Shown here: piece by piece, positions 5,329 to 7,867 of the stretch
How positions within the stretch are numbered: position 1 is the first letter of the stretch
Layout: each line of letters begins with the position of its first letter
Source: Chitinispirillia bacterium
Lineage (GTDB): Bacteria; Fibrobacterota; Chitinivibrionia; Chitinivibrionales; Chitinispirillaceae
Direction of reading: 5' to 3'
Length of the DNA: 34,981 nt
NCBI GenBank assembly: GCA_009786575.1
Contig: WQRV01000010.1
Span: 1 to 34,981, forward strand
The notes under the pieces: model-generated
Database searches by the model: none
What the model was told of the DNA's origin: nothing
The model's input: only the letters and a program-made list of their open reading frames with translations
Program-made: the position numbers and the translations under genes

Positions 5329-5381
5329 TATGGTATGAATAGGCGGGCTGTTTAACAATTTAGAGCAAAGGATGGTGCAGT

Positions 5382-6245
5382 ATGATGGTATCTGTTCGTA
5401 AGGTTACGGGATTAGTTGCGGCGGTGGCGTTGGCGGCGGTGGTTGTGGCGGGGTGCGATGGGGATAATAATCCGGGAGACGGCCACACGCACAGTTGGGG
5501 TAACTGGAGCGTAACAACGCCGGCTACCTGCGACGCGCCCGGTTTGGAAATAAGATACTGTGCGCTTGATAACTCCCATACCGAAACCAAGACGATAGCG
5601 CAGCTGCCGGGTTCGAGTTGCGCGGCAGTTAGTACATTTACCGATTCGAGGGATGGGCAAACTTATCGTGCCGTGACGATAGGTACGCAGACGTGGATGG
5701 CGGAGAATCTGAATTACGACGCAGGAGACGGTAGTGTTTGTTATGATAGTTTGGCGTCCAATTGTGATACCTACGGCCGTTTGTATAATTGGGCAACGGT
5801 TATGGGGTTTGAATCAAAATGTAATTCAAGTACGTGCGCAAATCAGGTACAGAATCCGCATCAAGGAAAATGTCCTGCTGGCTGGCATGTGCCGAGTGAC
5901 GCGGAGTGGACGACATTAACGGGTTTTGTTGGTGGATTAACGGCAGGGACGAAGTTGAAATCAACAAGTGGTTGGAATAATCGTGATGACGGCGGTAGTG
6001 GCAACGGTACAGATGAATTCGGCTTTTCGGCTCTGCCCGGCGGCGCCGGCACCGGCGGCCTCGTCATCGGCGACTTCGGCTTTGCCGGCAACCTCGGCTA
6101 CTGGTTGAGCGCCACGGAGGACGATACGAGCAGCGCCTGGAACCGGAACATGAGTTACAACAACAACATCGTGCCCATGTTCAGACACGGTAAGATACTC
6201 CTGCAGAGCGTGCGTTGTGTTCGGGACTCCGCGGCCCCGCAATAG
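5382..6245 (+). CDS. Lipoprotein with Fibrobacter succinogenes major paralogous (FISUMP, Fib_succ_major) domain
   Basis: Lipobox VVAGC; TDSRDGQTYRAVTIGTQTWMAENLNY..., CPAGWHVPSDAEWTTL, GTDEFGFSALPGG, GYWLSATED...SVRCVRD. Confidence 0.9.
   Translation: MMVSVRKVTGLVAAVALAAVVVAGCDGDNNPGDGHTHSWGNWSVTTPATCDAPGLEIRYCALDNSHTETKTIAQLPGSSCAAVSTFTDSRDGQTYRAVTIGTQTWMAENLNYDAGDGSVCYDSLASNCDTYGRLYNWATVMGFESKCNSSTCANQVQNPHQGKCPAGWHVPSDAEWTTLTGFVGGLTAGTKLKSTSGWNNRDDGGSGNGTDEFGFSALPGGAGTGGLVIGDFGFAGNLGYWLSATEDDTSSAWNRNMSYNNNIVPMFRHGKILLQSVRCVRDSAAPQ
6096..6225 (+). other. Candidate DGR variable-repeat-like segment at the FISUMP C-terminus
   Basis: GYWLSATEDDTSSAWNRNMSYNNNIVPMFRHGKILLQSVRCVRD resembles C-terminal variable repeats of C-type-lectin-fold DGR targets; mixed AAC and AAC-derivable codons precede an SVRCVRD tail. 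Confidence 0.35.
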
Positions 6246-6323
6246 CGCAGCAACCGCAAGCCGCTGCTCCGAGCCGCGCTTTTTGCGGCACGTGCCGTGG
6301 CCGTTATGTTTTGAGGAATGTGC

Positions 6324-6357
6324 GGGGAGGCCGGTAGTCCGGCCTTCCCTTTATTTT
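6324..6357 (+). terminator. Rho-independent terminator downstream of the FISUMP gene
   Basis: gggaggccgg-tagt-ccggccttccc then tttattttt. Confidence 0.8.
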
Positions 6358-6431
6358 TGGGAATTATATGATAAATGCCAATTTATTGACCGCTATTAAC
6401 CGTATTTTCCACTAAATCGGGTGTTGAGCCA

Positions 6432-6531
6432 TTATGTTTTGTCGGTGCATTGAACATACGTGGTACCGTATACGGGGCCTCTTTTCCCAGTATACGGTAT
6501 CACGACAGCACAATGCACCGACAAAACATAA
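6432..6531. repeat. 100-bp nested near-perfect palindrome
   Basis: Outer 21-bp perfect arms (6432-6452 / 6511-6531), symmetric 6x6 internal loop, inner 15-bp arms (6459-6473 / 6490-6504) with one G.T pair. Confidence 0.9.
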
Positions 6532-6640
6532 TCCCATCGTCTTTTAAAGTCAAAGTCAAAGATAAATGGCCGACCGGTTCGGGGCGCTTAAACACTCTTC
6601 TGTATGGCCTCATGCGTTTACCGAGGCCGGTGTAGCAATG

Positions 6641-7867
6641 TCAGCAATCAACAATCACTTCCTCCCCGCCGACCATTACAAACGCTACCTTGGGGTCCGA
6701 CATTACTAATCTTTCCAGCAAATCTTCCCCGGCCTCATACGGGAAGCGCACCCCTACGATGTCGGCGCACTTGGCGGGCGCGATGCTTCCCAGTTTGTCG
6801 GATGCCCGGAGCGCCGCCGCCGGATTTTTCGTTACCCATCCGAACAGTTCCTGCGCGCTGATATGCGGGTATTCCCGCTTCAGTTCGAACAGGTCATCGA
6901 ACAGGTTTGTCCCCCCGGCGGCGACTATCCCTTCTGTCCCTAAGCAAATCTTAATTCCCCGGTTCCTCGCGAGCTCTACCGGGAAATCTTTGTGCCCCAT
7001 TACCTTGCTGTATCCCCGGCATATCGTGATGAACGCCCGTTTTGCCGCGAGGAGCCCGAGGTCGTAGCCCGTTACGTAGTTGCAGTGGTAGAGTATTGCG
7101 CGCGAGGGGATCAGGTTTTCGGAGATGGCGTATTGCACGGGCCCAAGGCGCGATTCGCCGGCGGGCCAGGGGTATTTGCGCGTTTGGCTGAAGAAGAAGT
7201 CGCCGGTTTGGTCGCAGAACGCCTGCATCTCCTCGGCGCTCTCGGCGGCGTGGCAGGCCCAGAGGCAGTTTGTGCCGTAGCCCTGCTCGATTATCTTGCG
7301 GTGCCCGCGGGGGGAGAGCGAGTAGACCGCGTGCGGGGCTGTGCCGTAGCCGAACGCCGGCCCGCCGCGCTCGTCGGCCATCCACGCCCGCACCTGCTCT
7401 ATGCCCTCGTTGAGAAACTCCTCGTCGGCGATCTCCCTGATGATCACCGCGCGCACGGCCTCGCCGGCGAGCGCCTCGGCGGAGAGGCCGGTGCGCGTGG
7501 TGTCGGCTACGGTTGTGATGCCCTGCGCCACCATCTCCCGCGCGCTGAGCTTGATTCCGCTGCGCACTTGCCCGGTGGTCAGCTGGCGCATGCGCGAGTA
7601 TTTGGAGCTGTTCCAGGCGGTGTAGGACTCGCCGGGCTCCTTGGTGTAGCTCCTTATGGGCGCCTCCTCGAGGTGCGTGTGCATGTTGATGAGCCCCGGC
7701 AGGAGCAGGATGTCGCCGAGGTTTACCGTTCGCTCGTCGGCCGACCGCCGCACCGCGCCGCGCGGCCCGACCTCGGCGATGGCCCCGCCGCAGACCGACA
7801 CGGCCCCGTTGTGCATGATCTCCCCGGTATCGAGCAGGATGTGTTTGGCGAAGTAGACGGTTGTCAT
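6641..7867 (-). CDS. Amidohydrolase (cytosine deaminase/ATZ-TRZ-like; possibly aminodeoxyfutalosine deaminase-like)
   Basis: LPGLINMHTHLE, WACHAAES, ILYHCNYV, CLGTEG. Start MTTVYFAKHILL at 7867 preferred over the ORF-track start 7909. Confidence 0.8.
   Translation of the reverse strand: MTTVYFAKHILLDTGEIMHNGAVSVCGGAIAEVGPRGAVRRSADERTVNLGDILLLPGLINMHTHLEEAPIRSYTKEPGESYTAWNSSKYSRMRQLTTGQVRSGIKLSAREMVAQGITTVADTTRTGLSAEALAGEAVRAVIIREIADEEFLNEGIEQVRAWMADERGGPAFGYGTAPHAVYSLSPRGHRKIIEQGYGTNCLWACHAAESAEEMQAFCDQTGDFFFSQTRKYPWPAGESRLGPVQYAISENLIPSRAILYHCNYVTGYDLGLLAAKRAFITICRGYSKVMGHKDFPVELARNRGIKICLGTEGIVAAGGTNLFDDLFELKREYPHISAQELFGWVTKNPAAALRASDKLGSIAPAKCADIVGVRFPYEAGEDLLERLVMSDPKVAFVMVGGEEVIVDC

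Follow-up and report, generated by a model that had tools for sequence, protein, structure and literature searches.

The locus analysed here raises the question of how a lipoprotein gene of the FISUMP (Fib_succ_major) family came by a 3' end that is richer in GC and more variable in its codons than the rest of its coding sequence. The window, i.e., the whole stretch of 34,981 nucleotides under analysis, belongs to a MAG (G000; 2.89 Mb, 200 contigs, 91.7% complete). An earlier note on this DNA had proposed two origins for the gene end, namely that it is the variable repeat (VR) of an orphan or remote DGR target, or that it is a product of gene conversion among FISUMP paralogs. We have approached the question via the window gene itself, its paralogs in the same genome and the loci of related genomes.

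The window gene and its 3' end

The features of the window on which the argument is built are as follows.

5382..6245, + strand: FISUMP (Fib_succ_major) lipoprotein gene, 287 amino acids, candidate remote variable-protein gene (open reading frame with PF09603 and TIGR02145 matches)
5382..5456, + strand: lipoprotein signal peptide with a lipobox-like VVAGC (sequence)
5673..6224, + strand: FISUMP domain, residues 98-281; predicted model resembling C-type-lectin-like folds, with weak support (profile and structure model)
6023..6230, + strand: probable VR, GC-rich, made of NNC codons variable at positions 1-2 (boundaries inferred by aligning it with the template repeat of contig C123)
6271..6297, + strand: stem-loop element GAGCCGCGCTTTTTGCGGC..., a candidate homing-site hairpin, specific for the region 3' of FISUMP VR genes (pattern search)
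6324..6349, + strand: terminator-like hairpin, then TTTATTTTT (a similar element lies behind the C123 template repeat)

The encoded protein has a single FISUMP domain (PF09603, E=3.6e-29; TIGR02145, E=3.3e-47), its whole-domain profile match of 102.8 bits standing against a curated cut-off of 33.9, and the VR sits at the 3' end of the gene, inside this domain. A PDB sequence search with the protein gave nothing useful. The C-type-lectin fold for which the earlier note had suggested a structure prediction is plausible on the AlphaFold model (pLDDT 75, pTM 0.77, nine sequences), of which the best PDB match is the Legionella Lcl C-terminal domain (probability 0.97 but E=0.075), with C-type lectins and 4eps ranking further down; in a viral library, the top hits are phage proteins that take their names from the FISUMP domain.

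The layout WSATE...SVRCVRD, which the earlier note had taken as that of a DGR VR, is present as quoted, but was rejected as proof by itself, being a family layout common to paralogs with and without a VR. Other parts of that description held up. The shift from AT-rich to GC-rich composition is seen as a rise of GC3 within the FISUMP domain from 0.43 upstream to 0.85 in 6023-6230, and a GC3 jump of at least 0.25 at the VR start is common to 46 FISUMP copies in the genome (window included); the shift begins at the VR start and recurs in these copies, i.e., the VR carries the composition of the template. The proposed variation of AAC-derived codons at their A positions was likewise borne out: at the 20 codons that are AAC or AAT in the template repeat of this genome, the third base in the window is C in 85%, while positions 1 and 2 vary. 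In a comparison with 26 paralogs, differences at codon positions 1/2/3 amount to 0.226/0.283/0.479 upstream of the VR and to 0.395/0.375/0.196 in the VR region, a reversal that the paralogs share (third position differing most in the 5' part of the domain and least in the VR).

A leave-one-out analysis, with A sites inferred from paralogs as the window's own template is not in the assembly, placed 28/48 mismatches of the window at A sites vs. 19/135 elsewhere (Fisher p=9.6e-9). Some enrichment at these sites is also found in paralogs without a VR, because the FISUMP family varies there, and so the mismatch rate elsewhere weighs as much as the p-value; this rate is 0.14 for the window vs. about 0.3-0.5 for most no-VR paralogs. 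At conserved non-A sites the window differs in 6 of 96 positions (range in other paralogs, 0-12). Measured against the sites of the C123 template repeat (TR1), the window has mismatches at 27/52 adenines and 39/139 other bases, and against heterologous templates of relatives it displays a modest A-site enrichment (p=0.004-0.09). In its second half, the window VR includes codons (ATG, AGA, GGT, CAG) that are not simply A-derived from the group consensus, for which reason this VR may be old or decaying.

Just past the stop codon, the GC-rich palindromic stretch pointed out in the earlier note turned out to contain a recurrent element. The stem-loop pattern GAGCCGCGNNTTTTGCGGCACGGGGCG, derived from several VR genes and searched with up to 3 mismatches, yielded 8 matches in the genome (reversed control, 0), 7 of them directly 3' of FISUMP VR genes (that of the window at 6271-6297) and the eighth at a contig end. 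This pattern search supersedes rough earlier regex counts of hairpins (20/45 VR-like genes vs. 2/27 others). The element may correspond to the hairpin that known DGRs have at their target sites, or it may be a mere part of the duplicated unit.

At the other end of the gene, DNA 5354-5622 (promoter side and N-terminal lipoprotein part) shares 82-83% identity with two other FISUMP loci, and for residues 1-140 a locus on contig C28 reaches 85% identity. The loci that match 5354-5622 diverge in their later parts, suggestive of module exchange among paralogs. Further downstream, 6425-6540 holds an imperfect palindrome with arms at 6431-6477 and 6486-6532. This MITE- or REP-like element recurs at >30 sites in the genome, mostly as a 67-bp part, with several copies at contig ends.

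A template repeat and dispersed variable paralogs in the same genome

The search for a template suggested by the earlier note was partly successful: an AAC-rich template repeat (TR) was found on contig C123, and a TR exactly matching the VR of the window gene was not found in the 91.7%-complete assembly.

C123:6566-6756 (FISUMP match 6566-6766), - strand: non-coding AAC-rich TR (191-base alignment to the adjacent VR)
C123:8060-8518, - strand: full FISUMP gene with VR, about 1.3 kb from the C123 TR, same strand

The C123 TR corresponds to the C-terminal part of the FISUMP domain only, reads NRNTNGTFNNAGTNGNWWSATENGSGNAYNRNMNSNNANVNENNNAKGNGFSARCVR and has a hairpin behind it and no FISUMP N-terminal part ahead. 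Over 191 aligned bases, the neighboring VR departs from it at 19 of the 52 adenines and agrees with it at all 139 other bases; that all 19 differences should fall on A by chance has a probability of 1e-12. This TR/VR pair bears the signature of A-directed mutagenic homing, and the lack of any non-A change suggests that homing there was recent. No RT (reverse transcriptase) was found beside this template. A search of the genome with the inferred template revealed C123 as the only N-rich copy among the 40 of 103 candidates scored, a coverage at which a second template could have been missed.

FISUMP copies in this genome are numerous (about 73 substantial matches), and some 40-46 of them combine the GC3 jump with NNC codons varying at positions 1 and 2, the third base being mostly fixed. 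The number of VR-bearing paralogs depends on the criterion applied (43, 45 or 46), with the groups assigned by visual inspection of the alignment. Tabulating the codons of about 27 paralogs (the window gene among them) brings out such NNC codons, with variable bases 1-2, between constant blocks. The variability of paralogs is concentrated at sites that are adenines in the C123 template, with a mean entropy of 1.26 bits vs. 0.49 elsewhere (26 other paralogs, p=5e-13); to keep the test from being circular, the C123 template defined the site classes, and diversity was taken from 26 paralogs that had no part in the choice of sites. Contig ends cut FISUMP genes in 12 cases vs. about 6 expected, and because this enrichment is mild, assembly breakage was left out of the evidence.

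Reverse transcriptases in this genome and its relatives

Searches of the 91.7%-complete G000 assembly with PF00078, with an RT protein of the same genus and with an RT profile recovered no RT, and Avd was not found in it either; PADLOC gave generic RT matches only. An RT-like match of the same-genus query on contig C1 (E=0.16) was too weak to be counted. At this completeness, the RT and Avd may either have been lost or lie in a gap of the assembly. A full RT of the DGR clade is missing in 6 of 8 assemblies of the genus (G000, G001, G002, G004, G005, G007), and FISUMP VR-like genes persist in the latter five. In G002, short matches to the Avd-like protein and RT (G002:C266:24090-24218 and G002:C274:16137-16235) are possible remnants of a lost DGR.

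Two members of the same genus, G003 and G006, have a cassette in which an Avd-like fusion protein is followed by a TR and then by an RT (the G006 TR copy being poorly preserved); in G019, from another genus, a TR and RT of this type occur together with an Avd-like ORF. The RTs of all three carry the motif IGNLTSQ, which we take to be the DGR form of that motif. The nearest records of this RT clade are Chitinispirillales/Fibrobacteria MAGs of the same genus as the window, e.g., Nl494_bin39 and GUT77, presumably termite-gut genomes. The RT profile has matches in 37 of 168 Fibrobacterota genomes, some of them more distant RTs, and most of the closer loci examined have an N-rich FISUMP-type TR alongside; broken RT frames occur in other Fibrobacterota (e.g., G040, G098, G157). 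The TRs of relatives (e.g., WWSATENNSNNAWNRNMNYNNSNVNRNNNNKSYLFSVRC) are similar to the template deduced for the window's group. An IMG/VR contig (L257:3009-6960) carries a complete phage FISUMP DGR, made up of a tail fibre with a FISUMP domain at its end, a TR and an RT 64% identical to the Fibrobacterota RT. In six complete FISUMP VR-TR-RT cassettes (relatives and one phage-type contig), 140 of 146 TR/VR mismatches are at template A and 6 elsewhere.

Congeners also have N-rich FISUMP template-like repeats at G003:C118:2059-2259 and G004:C224:1170-1364, the former being the second in G003, apart from the RT-adjacent template on C131. A second DGR-type RT, with an HRDC-domain protein, is present in the same genus and family (L151, L162 and L152, on G006:C176, G003:C109 and G010:C19, respectively); one of these loci, L162, has an N-rich segment of the FGE-sulfatase type (RGGSWNNDARNCRVSNRNNNNPDNSNNNTGFRL).

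Competing explanations, precedents and implications

The 3' end of the window gene is very probably a DGR VR, i.e., a DGR RT copied a FISUMP template with errors at adenines, in an ancestor and possibly still. The remote-target proposal of the earlier note stands because of the TR in the same genome, the A-only TR/VR pair, the A-site variability of paralogs and the cassettes of relatives; its RT and Avd were not found in the incomplete assembly. Past DGR action on the window gene is well supported, and present activity is no more than possible. As a mechanism, the RNA of an A-rich FISUMP template would be copied by a DGR RT that errs at adenines, and the resulting mutated cDNA would replace, in trans, the last ~210 bp of the window gene and of some 40 other dispersed FISUMP genes, the outcome being a repertoire of surface lipoproteins with differing ligand-binding faces. 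By analogy with known DGR targets, the variable face presumably binds ligands. The VR of the window gene probably goes back to a TR of the same family that the assembly lacks, and the RT would be either in the unassembled part of the genome or recently lost.

A retroelement would not be needed if the region merely reflected natural variability within a large and fast-evolving family of paralogs, with FISUMP gene conversion reshaping it, and the large number of paralogs, the variation of the same codons in no-VR paralogs and a mosaic identity (e.g., to C78, 98% over 5712-5805 but 80% over 6083-6359) are all in line with it. Yet gene conversion does not predict changes at template adenines alone, and the C123 pair (19 vs. 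0) argues strongly against it as the sole cause; nor would it lead one to expect C to be kept at most third positions amid variable positions 1-2, or an N-rich copy that is non-coding, and it is further countered by the RT-TR-VR cassettes with the same domain in relatives. We regard it as improbable as the whole explanation, and of the gene-conversion claim in the earlier note we retain that, given the mosaic identities, such exchange may also be acting, above all on the 5' part.

Two further scenarios concern the whereabouts of the enzyme. In a sub-case of the DGR reading, to which we assign a real, if minority, chance, the VRs were written by a since-lost DGR, and the copies now drift or recombine. 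The absence of RT and Avd from G000 and of a full RT from five congeners that keep VR-like genes, the broken RT frames elsewhere in Fibrobacterota and the solitary C123 template are consistent with such a loss; on the other side, the C123 VR points to recent homing, a TR without an RT would be expected to decay, and repeat-rich loci are often missed by MAGs. Alternatively, the RT might act in trans from a mobile element, e.g., a phage, outside the bin. The phage-type contig L257 speaks for this, but the RT cassettes of G003 and G006 adjoin apparent housekeeping genes rather than phage genes, and no element linked to G000 was seen. We hold this scenario to be unlikely.

Returning to the DGR reading as a whole, it is quite possible, with our own leaning slightly to the negative side, that this Fibrobacterota lineage has a genome-wide hypermutation system, in which a few free-standing TRs feed >40 dispersed surface-protein genes via one trans-acting RT, and that DGR activity largely accounts for how the FISUMP "major paralogous domain" expanded in Fibrobacter and relatives. 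One gene end far from any RT has led to about 40-46 targets in a 2.9 Mb genome, and dispersed VR targets offer a testable explanation of why FISUMP paralogs are so abundant in Fibrobacterota, to which fibre-degrading bacteria of the gut belong. Should the RT be present and active, a large share of what the cell exposes at its surface would be hypermutated.

Fib_succ_major is a listed DGR target domain (PMC4159848, PMC8143477, PMC8934634). The Fib_succ_major DGRs of gut metagenomes and Bacteroides phages (PMC4159848, PMC8143477) share with the present case a C-terminal FISUMP/Fib_succ_major domain and A-directed TR/VR differences, as well as, in one instance, a variable protein that is a lipoprotein; they are loci of the usual type, whereas G000 has its VR genes dispersed and a lone TR without an adjacent RT. 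Similarly, the Fibrobacterota and L257 cassettes have the same RT clade, kind of TR (ENDANNAWNRNMN...) and target domain, but their VR, TR and RT are adjacent and the L257 target is a phage tail fibre. The TvpA DGR of Treponema denticola, with up to 7 targets for one TR and RT (PMC4891356), is comparable in having several dispersed lipoprotein targets per genome with a C-terminal VR and in the persistence of VRs in strains without a full DGR; it differs in its lower number of targets, in the RT of its complete-system strains and in its target family. In cyanobacteria (PMC7517822), remote VR genes are also dispersed as paralogs alongside no-VR paralogs, with 121 DGR-diversified genes across 21 genomes and, unlike here, varied N-terminal domains (kinases, caspases and others). 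Thus, neither the targeting of FISUMP by DGRs nor the existence of remote targets is new, and the novelty lies in scale and layout: dozens of dispersed targets with a free-standing TR exceed the 7-target case in the open-access literature, and a larger case may be published elsewhere. In that literature, DGRs in Fibrobacter are covered by nothing beyond surveys, and no papers were found under the word FISUMP. A global DGR survey confined itself to the neighborhood of the RT and notes that targets at remote sites escape it (PMC8144416), and another reported a genome with 91 TR-VR pairs, called atypical, with few A-to-N changes (PMC6642488).
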